Shown here: one piece after another, positions 6,345 through 53,955 of the stretch
Numbering within the stretch: the first letter of the stretch is position 1
Layout of the letters: each line of letters opens with the position of its first letter
NCBI RefSeq assembly: GCF_900105115.1
Contig: NZ_FNRV01000001.1
Location: 4,758,501-4,822,500 of the forward strand
Reading direction: 5' to 3'
Source: Pseudomonas mohnii
Lineage (GTDB): Bacteria; Pseudomonadota; Gammaproteobacteria; Pseudomonadales; Pseudomonadaceae
Length of the DNA stretch: 64,000 nt
The notes under the pieces: model-generated
The model's database searches: none
Seen by the model: only the letters and a program-made list of their open reading frames with translations
What the model was told of the DNA's origin: nothing
Program-made: the position numbers and the translations under genes

Positions 6345-7475
6345 ATGGCCAATCTGCGTATTGCGCTGGTGGCGGGTGAGGCTTCCGGTGACATTCTGGG
6401 CGCGGGGCTGATGCGTGCGCTCAAGGCTCAACACCCGGCAATCGAATTCATCGGTGTCGGTGGCCCGCTGATGCAGGCTGAAGGTTTGACTTCATACTTC
6501 CCGATGGAGCGCCTGTCGGTCATGGGCCTGGTGGAGGTCCTTGGCCGATTGCGCGAATTGCTGGCACGTCGCAAGAAACTGGTCGCAGACCTGATTGCCG
6601 CAAAGCCGGACGTGTTCATCGGAATCGATGCCCCGGATTTCAATCTCAATATCGAACTCAAACTGCGTCAGGCCGGGATCAAGACCGTGCATTACGTCAG
6701 TCCGTCGGTCTGGGCTTGGCGACAGAAGCGTGTGCTGAAGATTCGTGAAGGTTGCGACCTGATGCTGACGCTGTTTCCGTTTGAAGCAAAGTTCTATGAA
6801 GAGAAGGGCGTGCCAGTGCGGTTTGTCGGGCACACCCTGGCCGATGCTATTCCGCTCGAGGCCGACCGTGCCGCAGCGCGGGCCGAGCTTGGATTGCCTG
6901 ACGGGCCGTTGGTCGCGCTGATGCCCGGCAGTCGCGGCGGCGAAGTGGGCCGTCTGGGTGCATTGTTTCTCGACACGGCCCAACGCCTGCGGGCACTGCG
7001 TCCTGGCGTGCGGTTTGTCTTGCCGTGTGCCAACCCGCAGCGTCGCGCGCAGCTTGAAGAGCTGTTGGTCGGCCGCGATCTGCCGCTGACCTTGCTCGAT
7101 GGCAAGTCCCACCTGGCCTTGGCCGCGTGTAACGCAGTGCTGATCGCGTCCGGAACGGCAACGCTTGAAGCCCTGTTGTACAAACGCCCAATGGTGGTCG
7201 CTTATCGCTTGGCGCCGCTGACGTTCTGGATTCTCAAGCGGATGGTGAAAAGCCCCTACGTCTCCTTGCCGAACCTGCTGGCCCAGCGACTGCTGGTGCC
7301 CGAGTTGCTGCAAGACGATGCGACGGTCGAAGCGCTGGCCCAGACCCTGTCGCCGCTGATCGAGGGTGGGGAAGAGCAAACTCGCGGTTTTGACGAAATC
7401 CACCGTACCTTGCGTCTGGATGCCTCTAATCAGGCGGCGGATGCGGTGCTGAATTTGATCGGCCAAGCACAATGA
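6345..7475 (+). CDS. lpxB: Lipid-A-disaccharide synthase LpxB
   Basis: Joins UDP-diacylglucosamine and lipid X into the lipid A disaccharide at the inner membrane. 376 residues, GT19 family, with N-terminal [15 protein letters not shown] and the C-terminal nucleotide-binding half (MPGSRGGEV and a [21 protein letters not shown] segment). It overlaps rnhB by four bases. Confidence 0.97.
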
Positions 7476-8113
7476 GTAAAACAAGCATGCAGATGGGGCT
7501 GGATTTCACCTTGGTCGCTGAAGTGGAAGAGTTGGTTGCCGGCGTCGACGAGGTCGGTCGCGGCCCGCTCTGTGGCGCCGTGGTGACTGCGGCTGTGATC
7601 CTCGATCCGAACCGTCCGATTCTCGGCTTGAATGACTCGAAGAAGCTCACCGAAGCTCGCCGGGAAAAACTCTACGATGAAATCTGCGAGAAAGCCCTGA
7701 GCTGGTGCATCGCCCGCGCGGAAGTCGAAGAGATCGACGAGCTGAACATACTCCATGCCACCATGCTGGCCATGCAGCGCGCGGTAGCAGGGCTGCATAT
7801 ACAGCCGAAACTCGCGATGATCGACGGTAATCGTTGCCCGAAATTGCCGATGCGCGCCGAAGCGGTGGTGCAGGGTGATGGCAAGGTGCCAGCCATCGCG
7901 GCTGCATCGATTCTGGCCAAGGTCAGTCGTGACCGTGAAATGGCTGCGTTCGAATTGATTTATCCCGGCTACGGCATTGGCGGGCATAAAGGTTACCCGA
8001 CGCCAGTCCATCTTGAAGCGCTCGCTCGTCTGGGGCCGACCCCGATCCATCGGCGCTCGTTTGCCCCGGTGCGCTTGGCGTATGAGGCGCGGGAAAGCCT
8101 GATCGAGAGTTAG
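7472..8113 (+). CDS. rnhB: Ribonuclease HII
   Basis: Cuts RNA in RNA-DNA hybrids and removes misincorporated ribonucleotides. 213 residues with the metal site [10 protein letters not shown] (two acidic residues) and a third Asp in [21 protein letters not shown] is also characteristic. The start lies inside the lpxB stop (ATGA). It is the last gene before a terminator-like hairpin and dnaE. Confidence 0.97.
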
Positions 8114-8135
8114 CAGCAAGGCTGATTTTTTTTGC

Positions 8136-8167
8136 CAAGGCCCGGTACAATCCGGGCCTTGTTGTCT
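8136..8167 (+). terminator. Hairpin between rnhB and dnaE
   Basis: A 10-bp GC-rich inverted repeat (8136-8145 with 8152-8161, 6-base loop) followed by a short T-rich stretch. It may end part of the lpx-rnhB transcript before dnaE. The T-tract is weak, so read-through is likely. Confidence 0.55.
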
Positions 8168-8197
8168 TCACGTTTCTAGTTTCTAGACAGGATCACT

Positions 8198-11719
<3,522 letters not shown>

Positions 11720-28139: not shown

Positions 28140-28147
28140 TCGGGTTG

Positions 28148-28277
28148 TGTCGACGGACAGACACACCCTTCAAGGACGAAGGGAAGGGACATCGCAGGAA
28201 GCGATTCATCAGGACGATGAAAAGGAACACAGGGAATAGGGAAAAAAATGCGGGCGGGTCAAACCGCCCCTTTTTTT
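28148..28277 (+). ncRNA. rsmZ: Small regulatory RNA RsmZ
   Basis: Sponge RNA that titrates the translational repressors RsmA/RsmE. About 130 nt. The 5' end is a tgtc/gaca hairpin exposing a GGA. Nine GGA trinucleotides follow across the transcript (28155 to 28242), several in short hairpin loops such as gcaGGAagc and tcatcaGGAcgatga. The 3' end is a GC stem (28252-28257 with 28264-28269) and seven T. Position between rpoS and fdxA is the conserved rsmZ locus. It is expressed under GacS/GacA, as the upstream box suggests. Confidence 0.93.
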
Positions 28278-28797: not shown

Positions 28798-31377
28798 TTA
28801 GATCCGTGTCTTCAGTGTATAGAGCATTTCGAGTGCACGACGTGGTGTCATGTCGTCCAGGTCGAGTTTGGCCAGTTCATCCAGCACGGGATGTGGCAGG
28901 CTGGCGAACATATCGCTTTGCTGTGGCGCGGCCGGTTTGCCTTTGACTGGCTTGGGCGCCTCGTGAGGCAGGGCGGTATCTTCCAGTCGGCTTAAATGCT
29001 CGCGGGCACGCACAATCACTTCGCTTGGGACGCCGGCCAGCTGCGCAACAGCCAGGCCGTAGCTTTGGCTGGCAGGCCCTGGCAGAACGTGGTGCAGGAA
29101 CACGATGCGCTCGTTGTGCTCGGTGGCATTGAGGTGCACGTTGGCCACCAGCGGTTGGGCTTCCGGCAGGACCGTCAACTCAAAGTAGTGAGTGGCGAAC
29201 AGCGTGTAAGCCCGCAAATGCGCCAGGCGCTCCGCTGCCGCCCACGCCAGGGACAGACCGTCGAATGTACTGGTGCCGCGTCCGACTTCGTCCATCAGCA
29301 CCAGGCTGCGCTCGGTGGCGTTGTGCAGGATGTTGGCGGTTTCGCTCATTTCGACCATGAAGGTCGAGCGCCCGCCGGCCAGGTCATCACTGGAACCGAT
29401 CCGGGTGAAGATCCGGTCGACCAGGGACAGCTCGCAACTGGCCGCCGGTACGAAGCTGCCGATGTGTGCCAACAGCACGATCAGCGCGGTTTGCCGCATG
29501 TAGGTGGATTTACCGCCCATGTTCGGACCGGTAATCACCAGCATCCGCGTGCTGTCGTCCAGGTTCAGGTCGTTGGCGACGAACGGGGTGGTCAGGACTT
29601 GTTCGACTACCGGGTGACGGCCCTGCGTGATGCGCATGCACGGCTCGCTGACGAAGCGTGGGCAGTTCAGGTCGAGGTTCAGCGCGCGCTCGGCCAGGTT
29701 GCTCAGAACGTCTAGCTCGGCTAGCGCCGCAGCGGTGTCCTGCAGCGGTGGCAACTGTGCGATCAAATCTTCCAGTAGCGCTTCGTAGAGCATTTTTTCC
29801 CGGGCAAGGGCACGGCTCTTGGCCGACAGCGCCTTGTCTTCGAAGGCCTTCAGTTCTGGTGTGATGAAGCGTTCGGCGCCTTTGAGTGTCTGGCGGCGGA
29901 TGTAGTCAGCCGGTGCTGATTCGGCCTGCTTGCTTGGCAGTTCGATGAAGTAACCGTGAATGCGGTTGTAGCCAACCTTCAGGTGCGAGAGGCCGGTGCG
30001 GGCTTTTTCTCGGGCTTCGAGGTCAATCAGGAACTGCCCGGCGTTTTCGCTGAGCGATTGCAGTTCGTCGAGTTCACTGTCGTAACCGGTCTTCAACACG
30101 CCGCCGTCACGGATCACCGCGGGTGGATTGTCGATGATGGCTTTATCCAGCAGCGCCGCCAGTTCGGGGTAGGTGCTGGTGGTCCTGGCCAGTTGAATAA
30201 TGTGCGGGGCTTCGAGCTCAGTCATCGCCACTTGCAGTGCCGGCAGTGCACCGAGGGCGTCACGCAGGCGTGCGAGATCGCGGGGGCGAGCATTGCGCAG
30301 GCCGATTCGCGCGAGAATTCGTTCGATGTCACCGATTTCCTTGAGCTGCGGTTGCAGTTTCTCGAATCGGTAGCCATCGAGCAGGCAGGTGATCGATGTC
30401 TGGCGAGCCAGCAATACGGTCAGATCGCGCAGAGGACGGTTCAGCCAGCGGGTCAGCAGGCGGCTGCCCATGGCCGTCTGGCAACGGTCGACCACCGACT
30501 GCAGGGTGTTGTCACGGCCGCCGGCCAGGTTGGTATCCAACTCCAGGTTGCGGCGGCTCGCGCCGTCGAGTACGACAGTGTCGTCCAGGCGTTCATGACG
30601 CAAGCTGCGCAAGTGAGGCAATGCGGTGCGTTGGGTTTCTTTCGCGTAAGCCAGCAGGCAACCGGCGGCGCCGATGGCCAGGGTCAGGTTTTCACAACCG
30701 AAACCTTTCAGGTCTTGGGTAGCGAATTGCTGGCAAAGACTTTTCAGTGCCGAATCGCGCTCGAAATCCCACGGCGCACGGCGACGCACCCCACGGCGTT
30801 TTTCCGCCGGCAGGTCTTTCGGCCAGTCATCCGGGATCAAAAGCTCCACCGGATTGACCCGCTCGAGTTCCGCCAACAGGTTTTCCCAACCCTTGATTTC
30901 CAGCACGCTGAAGTTGCCGCTGGTGATGTCCAGCACCGCCAAGCCGAACAGACGCTCGTCACCCAATACCGCGGCGATCAGGTTATCCCGACGCTCGTCC
31001 AGCAACGCCTCATCGCTCACTGTCCCCGGCGTGATGATCCGCACCACTTGGCGATCCACCGGCCCTTTGCTGGTCGCCGGGTCGCCAACCTGTTCACAGA
31101 TCACCACCGACTCGCCAAGCTTCACCAGTTTCGCCAAATAGCCTTCGGCCGCGTGGTAAGGGATACCGCACATCGGAATCGCTTGGCCGGCCGACTGCCC
31201 ACGGGCAGTGAGTGTGATGTCCAGCAACTTGGCGGCCTTCTTCGCGTCTTCGTAGAAGATCTCGTAGAAGTCGCCCATGCGGTAGAACATCAACTGATCA
31301 GGGTGCTGGTTCTTCAGGCGCCAGTACTGCTGCATCATCGGCGTGTGGGAGGACAGGTCGGACAGGGCTTTATTCAT
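28798..31377 (-). CDS. mutS: DNA mismatch repair protein MutS
   Basis: Recognises mismatches and starts repair. 859 residues: mismatch-binding N-domain with [12 protein letters not shown] (Phe-x-Glu), connector, lever/clamp, and the ABC-type ATPase at the C-end with Walker [14 protein letters not shown] and [15 protein letters not shown] at 31377. It marks the left border of the mutS/cinA interval. Confidence 0.98.
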
Positions 31378-31510
31378 CGGGAATCGGAAAACTCATTGAA
31401 AGGTGTGGGGCAAAGGTGGGCATCGGCCCGGCTTTTCCGCAATGGGCGCAAGATTAACATGGGCGGTCCGCCGGACGCAGGCACGAACGCCACACGGCTT
31501 GCTTCTGCTG

Positions 31511-31585
31511 ATCTATGCATGAGGCATGCAAATCAGCATTTGTTTTCCATGCAAAGAACAAGCACTATGCACAGTATGCAAAAAC
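31511..31585. promoter_or_regulatory. Candidate repressor operator and promoter region
   Basis: Repeated TATGCA/TGCATG words at 31514-31530, 31549-31554, 31566-31571 and 31575-31580, plus an inverted repeat CAAAT-N4-ATTTG (31529-31542). The same words recur before the holin gene (32454-32468), suggesting autoregulation by the repressor encoded here. No firm -35/-10 pair could be assigned. Confidence 0.5.
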
Positions 31586-32310
31586 GCAACGTTTCTACCG
31601 TCTTAAGAGCACTGCTCGACCAGCACGGAATCTCCCCCACGGAGCTTCACCGTCGCACTGGCGTGCCCCAATCCACGCTCTCGCGGATTCTCAGCGGGAA
31701 GATCGTCGACCCATCGGATAAACACATCTCGAAGATCGCCGAGTACTTCGCCGTGAGCACCGATCAGTTGCGTGGTCGCGTGGACATCACGCCGACAGCC
31801 AATGCCGGGCGCGGTCGATCGCATGCTGAACTCAAGGATATAAGTCTGTGGGACGACGATACCCCTGTCGATGACGACGAGGTGTCGGTCCCCTTTCTTC
31901 GCGAGGTTGAATTGGCGGCGGGATCGGGAAGATTCGTCATCGAAGAGAGCGAACGCGCCAGCCTGCGCTTTGGCAAGCGCAGCTTGCGCCATAACGGTGT
32001 GCAGTTCGACCAGGCCAAATGCGTAACCGTGCGTGGTAACAGCATGCTGCCGGTACTGCGCGACGGTGCCACGGTTGGGGTTAACGCCGGCAAATGCGGG
32101 ATTGGCGACATCGTTGATGGCGACCTCTACGCCATCAACCACAACGGTCAACTGCGGGTGAAACAGCTTTATCGCCTGCCTACCGGAATTCGCCTGCGCA
32201 GTTTCAATCGCGATGAACACCCGGACGAGGACTACAGCTTCCAGGAAATGCAGGAAGAGCAAATCGTCATCCTCGGTCACGTCTTCTGGTGGGGCATGTA
32301 CGCCCGATAA
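31576..32310 (+). CDS. Phage-type repressor, helix-turn-helix plus LexA-like S24 peptidase
   Basis: 244 residues from ATG 31576; ATGs at 31567 and 31549 are also in frame, and none has a good ribosome site. N-terminal Cro/CI helix-turn-helix (about 6-60, SPTELHRRTGVPQSTLSRIL). C-terminal S24 domain: candidate Ala-Gly cleavage bond in LAAGSG (about 115-116), catalytic Ser156 in RGNSMLPVL and Lys196 in LRVKQLYR. These residues predict RecA-stimulated self-cleavage in the SOS response. The frame stays open far upstream inside mutS antisense, which is not coding. It stands in the mutS/cinA tailocin site before a holin gene. Confidence 0.9.
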   Translation: MQKRNVSTVLRALLDQHGISPTELHRRTGVPQSTLSRILSGKIVDPSDKHISKIAEYFAVSTDQLRGRVDITPTANAGRGRSHAELKDISLWDDDTPVDDDEVSVPFLREVELAAGSGRFVIEESERASLRFGKRSLRHNGVQFDQAKCVTVRGNSMLPVLRDGATVGVNAGKCGIGDIVDGDLYAINHNGQLRVKQLYRLPTGIRLRSFNRDEHPDEDYSFQEMQEEQIVILGHVFWWGMYAR

Positions 32311-32331
32311 CCTCCCGTCACTGTCAGATAA

Positions 32332-32357
32332 AACCCGCCATCAGGCGGGTTTTTTTC
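32332..32357 (+). terminator. Terminator of the repressor gene
   Basis: acccgcc / ggcgggt stem with a 4-base loop followed by a run of T, 21 bp after the repressor stop. Confidence 0.9.
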
Positions 32358-32443
32358 ACCTGCGCCAAAAGCGCGAACGCCCTTGTTTGCATGAGTGAGA
32401 ATGCGTTTGTGCATTTTGTGTGCGGTTGGAATGCACTTTAACA

Positions 32444-32472
32444 TTGACAAAATATGCACCTATGCATAAATT
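32444..32472 (+). promoter_or_regulatory. Holin promoter with overlapping TATGCA operator
   Basis: TTGACA (32444-32449), 17-bp spacer, TAAATT (32467-32472). The spacer holds TATGCA-cc-TATGCATA (32453-32468), matching the words upstream of the repressor gene. Binding there would block polymerase, so the promoter is expected to open when the repressor is cleaved. Confidence 0.55.
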
Positions 32473-32592
32473 CGATCTCAACCCGGTCTGTTAATCGGTT
32501 CCAACGAAGGTTTCTGCCTGCGTGATGTAAGACTCAGCAACGGACATGGTTAAGCGCACTTACACCCCATCGATTACTCCAGGAGGCATGAC

Positions 32593-32940
32593 ATGACCAT
32601 TGAGCCGCCAGCGTTGCTGGACATTCCGATCTGGCTGGTCGTCGTCCTTGCGTTGGTGGGTGGGCTGTCCGGTGAGATGTGGCGCGCCGACAAGGATGGC
32701 GCCCGTGGTTGGGCGTTGCTTCGGCGGCTGGCCCTGCGCTCCGGGGCCTGCATGGTCGGCGGGGTATCGGCAATCATGCTGTTGTATGCCGCCGGCCTGT
32801 CGATCTGGGTCGCCGGCGCCTTCGGTGGCCTCACTGCGATGGCCGGGGCGGACGTGGCGATCGGTCTTTATGAACGGTGGGCGGCCAAGCGGATCGGCGT
32901 TTGTAAAATGCCACCCCGAGACTCTCGGCCCGACCAATAA
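32593..32940 (+). CDS. Phage holin-like membrane protein
   Basis: 115 residues with a strong aggagg site (32581-32586). Three hydrophobic stretches (about 8-22, 50-67, 68-85) and a basic tail fit the small holins that head tailocin clusters in fluorescent pseudomonads. Holins make the pore that releases the lysin. No endolysin, baseplate, tail or fibre gene follows before cinA, so the gene is isolated. Family assignment is from size, topology and position. Confidence 0.75.
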   Translation: MTIEPPALLDIPIWLVVVLALVGGLSGEMWRADKDGARGWALLRRLALRSGACMVGGVSAIMLLYAAGLSIWVAGAFGGLTAMAGADVAIGLYERWAAKRIGVCKMPPRDSRPDQ

Positions 32941-33150
32941 TGAATCCCGTCGATAAATAAACAGGAAGTGCTTTGTCAGTCGCCGATGTGATCGTGACGT
33001 CCATGCCAGCGACCGCGGACGGATTGCCTTGCAGACGTGTCAGGCTTATATCAGAGCGCCCGCGCGCTAACATTTTGATCGATCCTGTAACTTGCAAGCG
33101 TGATCCGCTCGTGTACGGTAGGCCTCATTCCGCCTGATCAGGAGATGACT
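32941..33150 (+). other. Holin-cinA gap
   Basis: 210 bp with no clear gene. A 54-codon frame from a TTG at 32973, with aggaag at 32963-32968, runs to a stop at 33135-33137. It may be the decayed start of the next phage gene or chance. No terminator is visible. Confidence 0.35.
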
Positions 33151-33651
33151 GTGAAAGAAATCACACAGCTGGCCGCCGAGCTCGGTAGACGCTTGCAGGT
33201 TCTCAACGCCCATGTCACCGCAGCAGAGTCCTGTACGGGCGGCGGAATTTCCGAGGCGATAACCCGGATTCCGGGCAGTTCGGCATGGTTCGAGGCGGGT
33301 TACGTCACTTACTCCAACCGTCAGAAGACCCAGCAGTTGAATGTCCCTGCCGAGTTGTTTTCAACGGTGGGGGCGGTCAGTCGAGAGGTCGTCGAAGCCA
33401 TGGTCCGCGGCGCGCAGGAAAGAAGCCATGCGCGTTTTGCCGTAGCAGTCAGCGGCGTCGCCGGCCCGGACGGCGGTTCGCCAAGTAAGCCGGTCGGCAC
33501 CGTATGGCTGGCCTGGGGCGTCGGCGAGCAGGTGTTCAGTGAGTTACAGCACTTCCCGGGTAATCGCGACGAAGTTCGCCGACAAACGGTGAAGGCCGCG
33601 CTAGAGGGGCTGCTGCGACATGCCGCCGGAGAAATCTCAAATCAGGGGTAG
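33151..33651 (+). CDS. CinA-family nicotinamide-nucleotide amidohydrolase (PncC domain)
   Basis: Deamidates NMN in pyridine-nucleotide recycling. 166 residues, only the C-terminal CinA domain (no MoaB-like N-domain). Conserved [21 protein letters not shown] and [19 protein letters not shown]. The start GTG 33151 is preferred: ggag at 33141-33144 is 6 bases upstream, whereas the in-frame ATG at 33145 abuts it. It lies just before recA, as usual. Confidence 0.93.
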
Positions 33652-33678
33652 GCGATCCTCGAACGCTGTGGAATAATA

Positions 33679-33694
33679 CTGTCTACTTATACAG
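33679..33694 (+). promoter_or_regulatory. LexA box of recA
   Basis: CTGT-N8-ACAG, an exact match to the gamma-proteobacterial SOS box, 41 bp before the recA ATG. Confidence 0.92.
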
Positions 33695-33734
33695 GTGTTG
33701 GCCGTCAGGCCTTATTGATTACGTGAGGACTTTA

Positions 33735-34787
33735 ATGGACGACAACAAGAAGAAAGCCTTGGCTGCGGCCCTGGGTCAGATCGAACGTCAATTCGGCAAG
33801 GGTGCCGTAATGCGTATGGGCGATCAGGACCGTCAGGCGATCCCATCCATTTCCACTGGCTCTCTGGGTCTGGACATCGCACTGGGCATTGGCGGTCTGC
33901 CAAAAGGCCGTATTGTTGAAATCTACGGTCCTGAATCTTCCGGTAAAACCACTCTGACCTTGTCCGTCATCGCCCAGGCTCAAAAAGCCGGCGCGACTTG
34001 TGCATTCGTCGATGCTGAACACGCTCTCGATCCTGAATACGCCGGCAAGCTGGGTGTCAACGTTGACGACCTGCTGGTTTCCCAGCCGGACACCGGCGAG
34101 CAAGCCCTGGAAATCACCGACATGCTGGTGCGTTCCAACGCGGTTGACGTAATCATCGTCGACTCCGTGGCGGCGCTGGTGCCAAAGGCTGAAATCGAAG
34201 GCGAAATGGGCGACATGCACGTTGGCCTGCAAGCCCGTCTGATGTCCCAGGCGCTGCGTAAGATCACCGGTAACATCAAGAACGCCAACTGCCTGGTGAT
34301 CTTCATTAACCAGATCCGTATGAAAATCGGCGTGATGTTCGGCAGCCCGGAAACCACCACCGGTGGTAACGCGCTGAAGTTCTACGCTTCGGTTCGTCTG
34401 GATATCCGTCGTACTGGCGCGGTGAAAGAAGGTGATGAAGTCGTCGGTAGCGAGACCCGCGTCAAGGTTGTGAAGAACAAGGTGGCTTCGCCGTTCCGTC
34501 AGGCCGAGTTCCAGATTCTTTATGGCAAAGGTATCTACCTCAATGGCGAGATGATCGACTTGGGTGTTCTGCACGGTTTCGTTGAAAAATCCGGTGCCTG
34601 GTATGCCTACAACGGCACCAAGATCGGTCAGGGCAAAGCCAACTCGGCCAAGTTCCTGGCGGATAACCCGGAAATTGCAGCGACCCTTGAAAAACAACTG
34701 CGCGACAAACTGCTGACGCCAGCGCCGGACGTCAAAGCTTCGCCAGTCAAAGAGACTGAAGATGACCTGGCTGACGCTGACATCTGA
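33735..34787 (+). CDS. recA: Recombinase RecA
   Basis: Strand exchange and SOS co-protease. 350 residues; Walker [10 protein letters not shown] (about 67-75), MAW-like core, loop L2 region [17 protein letters not shown] and an acidic tail. ATG 33735 ([13 protein letters not shown]); a GTG at 33723 would add four residues. It is preceded by a LexA box and followed 9 bp later by recX. It would be the trigger for cleavage of the S24 repressor nearby. Confidence 0.99.

Positions 34788-53572: not shown

Positions 53573-53649
<77 letters not shown>

Positions 53650-53878: not shown

Positions 53879-53955
<77 letters not shown>

Follow-up and report, generated by a model that had tools for sequence, protein, structure and literature searches.

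A tailocin locus of Pseudomonas mohnii stripped to its repressor and holin genes may be a minimal cell-death switch

Introduction

The closest described systems are the tailocin (phage-tail bacteriocin) loci lying between mutS and cinA in the P. fluorescens group, among them prophage 01 of Pf-5, ssh6 of Q8r1-96, and the locus of CHA0. The loci investigated in Pseudomonas protegens and P. chlororaphis are described as encoding PrtR, holins, and lysins (PMC7815802), and the Pf-5 holin homolog, PFL_1211, is reported to be lethal to Escherichia coli on induction (PMC2647930). In P. aeruginosa, the AlpR–AlpA–AlpBCDE pathway lyses cells in response to DNA damage and has a terminator before alpB (PMC7969949); AlpB, described as having no known lysin of its own, acts together with the Lys protein encoded in the pyocin cluster (PMC8131026). 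At the RNA level, putL of HK022 is described as a cis-acting antiterminator (PMC9378689).

We analyzed a 64,000-nucleotide stretch of the P. mohnii genome (contig NZ_FNRV01000001.1, positions 4,758,501 to 4,822,500; hereafter, the window), in which the same interval is reduced to a repressor and a holin. Were these 2 genes retained for a function of their own, they would form about the smallest conceivable SOS-triggered death switch.

Results

Gene content of the mutS–cinA interval

The interval holds exactly 2 genes, encoding a PrtR-type S24 repressor and a holin. The region contains the following features (window coordinates; strand, with a dot where none is assigned; description; basis):

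28798..31377, −, mutS, left flank (Pfam MutS I–V)
31516..31530,., operator-like word TGCATGAGGCATGCA, upstream of prtR (pattern scan, sequence)
31568..31580,., operator-like word TGCACAGTATGCA, across the prtR start codon (pattern scan)
31576..32310, +, prtR, PrtR-type repressor with HTH_3 and Peptidase_S24, 244 aa (Pfam; start codon by relatives)
32334..32356, +, hairpin CCCGCC-ATCA-GGCGGG plus T7, probable prtR terminator (read from the sequence; aligned in relatives)
32444..32472, +, holin promoter TTGACA-17-TAAATT (pattern scans)
32455..32466,., probable PrtR operator TGCACCTATGCA, inside the promoter spacer (pattern scans; binding predicted)
32473..32592, +, short 5′ UTR, the site of a leader RNA and terminator in cargo-bearing relatives, both absent here (alignment, model search)
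32593..32940, +, hol, holin, 115 aa, PF16085 (Pfam, alignment)
33003..33076, +, scar, the last ~24 codons of a lost spanin (Rz) gene (local alignment to relatives)
33151..33651, +, cinA, right flank, start codon provisional (Pfam CinA, 9e-53)
33679..33694, +, box CTGTCTACTTATACAG before recA, which we take to be of the LexA type (pattern scan; the pattern occurs once in the window, with 0.67 expected by chance)

Two protein query sets (E ≤ 1e-4) found no tail genes in the 64-kb window. The first, 27 of the 30 annotated proteins of the Q8r1-96 tailocin with its Mu/SfV-type tail (EU982300), matched PrtR and Hol alone; from the second, 26 reading frames of 2 loci with P2-type tails (L069 and L065), only frames that are or overlap hol and cinA gave matches. 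Together with the Pfam calls, this bears out the original prediction that repressor and holin stand alone between mutS and cinA. The interval contains no lysin or baseplate gene and no prtN, its spanin is a remnant of ~24 codons only, and neither of its 2 genes fits the AlpA antiterminator or the alpBCDE operon.

The window also contains a PrrB/RsmZ small RNA (RF00166, 135.5 bits; 28146–28277, +) between a sigma-factor gene and a ferredoxin gene, both named by eye; the same RNA was found inside 5 of the 6 relatives' loci scanned. Two tRNA-Met genes lie on the minus strand at 53573–53649 and 53879–53955, with a spacing of 229 bases.

A spanin scar and the loss of cargo

The scar between hol and cinA aligned with the 3′ end of the pre-cinA spanin gene in all 9 cargo-bearing or intermediate loci tried, with 47 to 65 identities across 55 to 76 bases and scores of 52 to 109, against shuffled maxima of 24 to 29 (300 shuffles per locus); for L068, the figures were 65 of 72 bases, a score of 109, and a shuffled maximum of 28. 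The spanin gene is identified by Pfam as Phage_lysis (Rz) in L069 and falls just under the cut-off in L066. A short spanin remnant is also present in Pseudomonas sp. QTF5, and P. moorei carries, by eye, a lysin-like fragment (AFLAQVGHES) in place of the scar. The mutS tree described below gives no direction of change by itself, and it is the scar that sets the direction as loss: as judged by alignment, it shows a locus that was stripped rather than small from its origin.

Upstream of the holin, P. mohnii and P. moorei appear by eye to have a common leader-deletion junction, so that the leader loss would predate their split. With the leader lost upstream and the spanin and cargo downstream, sequence was removed on both sides of a spared holin, which would represent at least 2 events, unless a single recombination imported a short allele. 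The spanin remnant and the absent leader RNA are features beyond the original prediction.

Recurrence of the stripped form in the genus

We surveyed 199 genomes from the genus; all 199 contain cinA, 137 contain the holin, and 132 have a repressor match at E ≤ 1e-40. The prtR–cinA distance, measured by hand in the 107 genomes with both genes listed on one contig, was 8 to 36 kb in 79, 1.5 to 5.2 kb in 12, and below 1.3 kb in 16, including P. mohnii; in the other 25, cinA was not among the matches listed or was on another contig (18 genomes), or the only PrtR-like match was distant (7 genomes). Of seven loci with 12 to 16 kb of cargo, three (L066, L067, and L068) have tails of the Mu/SfV type, and four (L065, L069, L070, and L072) match the P2-type queries. 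Related strains thus do carry tailocin clusters at this position, as had been supposed. Four intermediates (L053, L054, L058, and L063) contain repressor, holin, lysin, and spanin homologs, and no tail structural genes were found in them. The extra genes of an intermediate locus include a Proteo-phage-1 RNA (RF03044; L060:7623-7703, +).

All 16 short-interval genomes have a holin, just 56% to 62% identical to that of P. mohnii in L039, L040, and L048. Three of the genomes (G128, G030, and G161), in which the sequence examined ends before mutS, were dropped as two-gene loci owing to tail or prophage genes upstream of prtR: a contractile tail in G128 (L154 and L155), lambda-type tail genes and Rz in G030 (L156), and a T7-type tail fibre in G161 (L157). 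Two loci with mutS beyond the sequence examined (L043 and L050) were left out of the count. Eleven survey loci, together with those of P. moorei CCUG 53114 (L073) and Pseudomonas sp. QTF5 (L103), which came from a scan of the best 80 of 383 relatives, make up 13 stripped loci with mutS in view (P. mohnii, L038, L039, L041, L042, L045, L047, L048, L049, L051, L052, L073, and L103). The mutS–prtR distance is 157 to 212 bases in 12 of them and 1,269 in L047, and the Q8r1-96 queries find nothing beyond PrtR and Hol in the 12 stripped loci other than that of P. mohnii.

On a mutS tree (FastTree, 88 rows), which places P. mohnii and P. moorei as sisters with full support, the distribution of the 13 stripped loci requires 9 changes, of which well-supported branches force 8. 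The two-gene form, for which a comparison of the mutS–cinA interval had been proposed, hence recurs, with at least 8 changes, and none of the 13 loci has an interrupted prtR or hol frame, which is also true of all 18 loci initially classed as two-gene, the 13 among them.

One explanation for a conserved pair amid changing neighbors is that PrtR represses incoming elements with the same operator, while the prtR–hol segment docks new cargo by recombination. Cargo varies between loci, tail or prophage genes lie upstream of the pair in the 3 genomes dropped above, and, according to Mavrodi et al., the segment between the conserved prtR–hol pair and lys may be a hotspot of recombination (PMC2647930). 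We nevertheless regard this immunity or landing-pad role as highly improbable: it leaves unexplained the purifying selection on the holin protein (see below), and the lysin arm of the recombination site has been lost here.

Repressor and control region

The prtR product is a Cro/CI-type protein by Pfam (HTH_3, 1.9e-11; Peptidase_S24, 1.9e-17). Numbered from the start at 31576, the point at which the relatives' alignments begin, it has the Ser156/Lys196 dyad and an Ala115–Gly116 cleavage site, and both are invariant in 18 aligned sequences, in agreement with the original prediction; from these residues, PrtR is predicted to undergo RecA-dependent self-cleavage. Pairwise dN/dS (NG86) of prtR in two-gene pairs ranges from 0.022 to 0.113. 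Elsewhere in the genome (C1:1298000-1317900, L159), a prophage-like gene set includes a second PrtR-like repressor, about 52% identical.

The control elements had been described as intact, and this holds for the repressor, operator, promoter, and ribosome site (AGGAGG at 32581–32586, before the holin), but not for the structured leader and terminator, which are gone. The operator words are likewise present, but not above chance by themselves: TGCAN4TGCA was found twice in the window against 1.9 expected, and 1 promoter-like site was found in 31380–33760 against 1.1 expected. Because neither scan exceeds chance, both were rejected as evidence when taken alone, and we relied on the composite pattern of promoter plus operator, which has a single perfect site in the 6.59-Mb genome; three further sites have 3 mismatches, against 2 control hits. 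On the plus strand, no terminator-like site was found between the holin promoter and the holin of P. mohnii.

All 13 stripped loci have at least 1 TGCAN3-5TGCA word in the prtR–hol spacer, and the promoter pattern was found in all but L041 and L048 (11 loci); in L049, L051, and L052, the perfect operator word lies solely upstream of the −35 element. The control layout thus differs from that of P. mohnii in 5 of the 13 loci.

Conservation of the holin

The holin belongs to Phage_holin_3_5 (PF16085, superfamily III; 2.4e-49), with a full-length profile match over residues 1–111, is 80% identical to that of Q8r1-96, and presumably permeabilizes the membrane. It is the only holin of this kind in the complete genome (6.59 Mb, 2 contigs). 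Among the hol rows listed in the genus survey, one (G189:C17:104782-105117) has an in-frame TAG stop, and none of the 13 stripped loci does.

The dN/dS of both genes had been singled out for measurement and proved to be low in pairwise comparisons. For hol, pairwise NG86 dN/dS, in which part of each branch may predate cargo loss, is 0.108 between P. mohnii and P. moorei (dS 0.41), 0.024 to 0.044 among L049–L052 (0.031 to 0.043 for L049, L051, and L052), and 0.156 between L039 and L040. Between P. mohnii and P. moorei, 11 of 115 codons are changed in amino acid, against about 80 nonsynonymous differences expected under neutrality. Conversely, end branches of the holin are longer in stripped loci, with a median of 0.15 (n = 15, including L043 and L050) against 0.054 for all 106 rows; holin dN is 0.057 between P. 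mohnii and L069, against 0.008 between the cargo-bearing L069 and L085, and in two-gene pairs dS is often higher for hol than for mutS. The longer branches and high dS could reflect relaxed constraint or less recombinational exchange.

These rates bear on whether the pair is a passive remnant in transit, from which cargo and leader are gone and in which hol has not yet decayed; the repressor would then be kept because its loss would free a lethal holin. The longer holin branches fit such a reading, as do the 4 intermediates that retain holin, lysin, and spanin and the erosion seen in a leader fragment of L042 and a decayed leader of L046 (see below). The absence of any broken hol among the 13 stripped loci and the shortfall in changed codons speak against it, and the addiction argument protects prtR, not hol; we consider a passive remnant unlikely, if still the most credible of the alternatives to a retained switch. 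The original prediction had offered loss of cargo or retention of the module as alternatives, and both are supported together: the scar indicates loss, whereas low dN/dS, recurrence, and open frames, along with the operator words, argue for retention of the pair.

Lysins and tails elsewhere in the genomes

Lysin homologs occur at 4 places in the P. mohnii genome (C1:1262857, 1275156, 1348485, with 2 stops, and 5205612) and could provide a lysin in trans. They were found elsewhere in 9 of the 11 stripped genomes searched, P. mohnii included, and gave no match in the other 2 (G130 and G051).

The sheath profile PF04984 had 0 matches in the P. mohnii genome and likewise 0 in G086, although P2-type genes for tube, baseplate, and fibre are present in L069, the locus of the latter. 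Since PF04984 misses such loci, its use as proof of a tail-free genome was withdrawn, and a P2-type tailocin may be present elsewhere in the P. mohnii genome. Beside the P2-type tube gene of L069, a 388-residue protein without a Pfam match (7110–8273, −) is a possible sheath unseen by PF04984. A PF04984 sheath is encoded elsewhere in 4 of the 10 other stripped genomes, so not all stripped genomes are tail-free. PDB sequence searches found nothing.

The holin might accordingly be a shared release device that frees bacteriocins, tails, or prophage particles made elsewhere, together with their lysin. The lysin homologs (one with stops), the sheaths in other stripped genomes, and the second PrtR-like repressor in its prophage-like gene set agree with this, and AlpB, CidA, and Hol are described as serving one Lys in P. 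aeruginosa (PMC8131026). With a single perfect promoter–operator site in the genome, however, we see no sign that PrtR also controls other cargo, although common SOS control could serve instead; we judge a release device improbable, somewhat more so than a passive remnant.

A structured leader RNA lost with the cargo

In cargo-bearing loci, promoter and holin are separated by a further block of about 220 to 270 bases, with a terminator hairpin at its end (for example, L066:4752-4980 and aligned relatives; hairpin z −7.5 in L066). A first alignment comprised 46 of 65 distinct sequences chosen by motifs at both ends from loci picked for having the terminator, with 25 further long-gap loci, which failed one end motif, remaining outside it; it was too conserved for covariation analysis (RNAalifold, double changes in 2 of 61 pairs, uninformative). 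A second alignment of 35 sequences, with diverged copies from other genomes and phages, contains 3 hairpins with double changes in 9 of 19 pairs and 44 cells, against 10.9 cells in shuffled alignments, none of 500 shuffles being as high, and the signal is destroyed by sliding the partners. The structure rests on this covariation, because the fold energy of the core is unexceptional (z −0.86 and −0.27) and the minimum-energy folds differ from it.

A covariance model of the second alignment scored above 100 bits in 17 of the 19 cargo-bearing or intermediate loci with a complete prtR–cinA stretch (one of them, L066, itself in the alignment) and in 0 of the 13 stripped loci (Fisher p 3e-7, without correction for shared descent). 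The exceptions are L063 (34.6 bits) and L064 (no match); among stripped loci, L042 has a leader fragment (49.6 bits) and L045 (G167) just the terminator end, by DNA match. Three loci were kept out of this comparison: L044, which retains the leader (111 bits; in the second alignment), L046, with its decayed leader (52 bits), and L071, in which the leader is present and the sequence stops before cinA. By DNA match, partial ones counted, the leader occurs in 118 of the 199 survey genomes. The P. mohnii genome has no such match apart from a 22-base chance one, nor an R1 match in a search run without a positive control, and the best model score in the window was 14.9 bits (E 0.058), inside cinA.

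The leader was also found in 10 phage records and at least 120 IMG/VR stretches. Of the 104 copies examined, 74 are preceded on the same strand by an S24 repressor, at a distance of no more than 420 bp in 49, and 20 are followed by a strict terminator pattern within 400 bases. In PseuP_224 and Medea1, the RNA core is located between a cI-type repressor gene, on the same strand as the core, and a run of further genes; in Orimi01, the leader has no repressor before it on that strand. Outside the genus, the leader was found in none of 274 genomes from the class, in a search with strict filters, 15 candidates scored per genome listed, and no positive control.

A known Rfam family was ruled out by the absence of Rfam 15 matches, at gathering in 6 loci and at E ≤ 10 for the L066 core. 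A protein gene was rejected as well, since the frame shifts between loci and the stems covary; the "Com" CDS of EU982300 begins at the leader's end. No kinship to HK022 put was detected (best 10.1 bits in HK022), so the likeness of leader and put is one of analogy. By that analogy, the leader is a candidate cis-acting, put-like antiterminator; alternatively, its terminator may release a small RNA. This covarying RNA, which has no entry in Rfam and lies in front of tailocin operons, is a candidate explanation for the full transcription of intervals that reach about 35 kb.

Discussion

A retained SOS-triggered repressor–holin switch, derived from a stripped tailocin locus, is the reading we lean towards, with slightly more confidence than doubt. 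Alignment with relatives shows that the tailocin locus was deprived, on either side of the holin, of the leader RNA, the tail genes, the lysin, and most of the spanin. Upon SOS induction, RecA* is predicted to promote self-cleavage of PrtR at Ala115–Gly116, which would free the operator in the holin promoter; with no terminator left between promoter and holin, the holin would be made directly, would permeabilize the inner membrane, and would cause cell death, or lysis given a lysin encoded elsewhere. The benefit could lie in an SOS-triggered self-killing of damaged cells or in the release of products made elsewhere. A holin that merely kills its own cell should be easily lost, so the benefit must be social or indirect.

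The stripped form has turned up in several lineages, with hol intact, and may therefore act as a minimal cell-death switch. Several observations count against a switch, namely the faster evolution of the holin in stripped loci, the divergent control layouts in 5 of 13 loci, tails in 4 of 10 genomes, and the 2 of 11 without a lysin match. If the reading is true, the switch arose several times from a weapon by losing the weapon, and its benefit is testable by a one-gene deletion. The wider proposal, that Pseudomonas tailocins repeatedly decay to a two-gene SOS death switch and that the leader lost with the cargo is a cis-acting, put-like processive antiterminator of the long tailocin operon and of an operon in related phages, is a tentative one, which we find possible and rather doubtful. 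The titles and abstract openings searched, from a collection with few subscription journals, contained no description of the recurrent repressor–holin form or of the leader RNA.

Comparison with known systems

The P. mohnii locus has in common with the mutS–cinA tailocin loci its place and its prtR–hol start, and promoter and operator type agree in the loci compared; it differs in having no tail, lysin, complete spanin, leader RNA, or terminator. The Alp pathway, triggered by DNA damage (PMC7969949, PMC8131026), similarly places a putative holin outside a phage under a self-cleaving repressor, a likeness drawn from the published descriptions, whereas the locus described here has 2 genes, no antiterminator gene, and no alpCDE, and the terminator found before alpB has no counterpart before its holin. 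Control of the R and F pyocins of P. aeruginosa by PrtR and PrtN, in part described in PMC2647930, likewise involves a PrtR-type repressor and a pyocin-type holin; without prtN in the two-gene interval, repression here looks direct. Finally, the leader, whose activity is putative, differs from HK022 put in its 3 hairpins and in sequence, but resembles it in its small adjacent stem-loops and in its position, the leader core following the repressor gene in PseuP_224 and Medea1 as putL follows PL.
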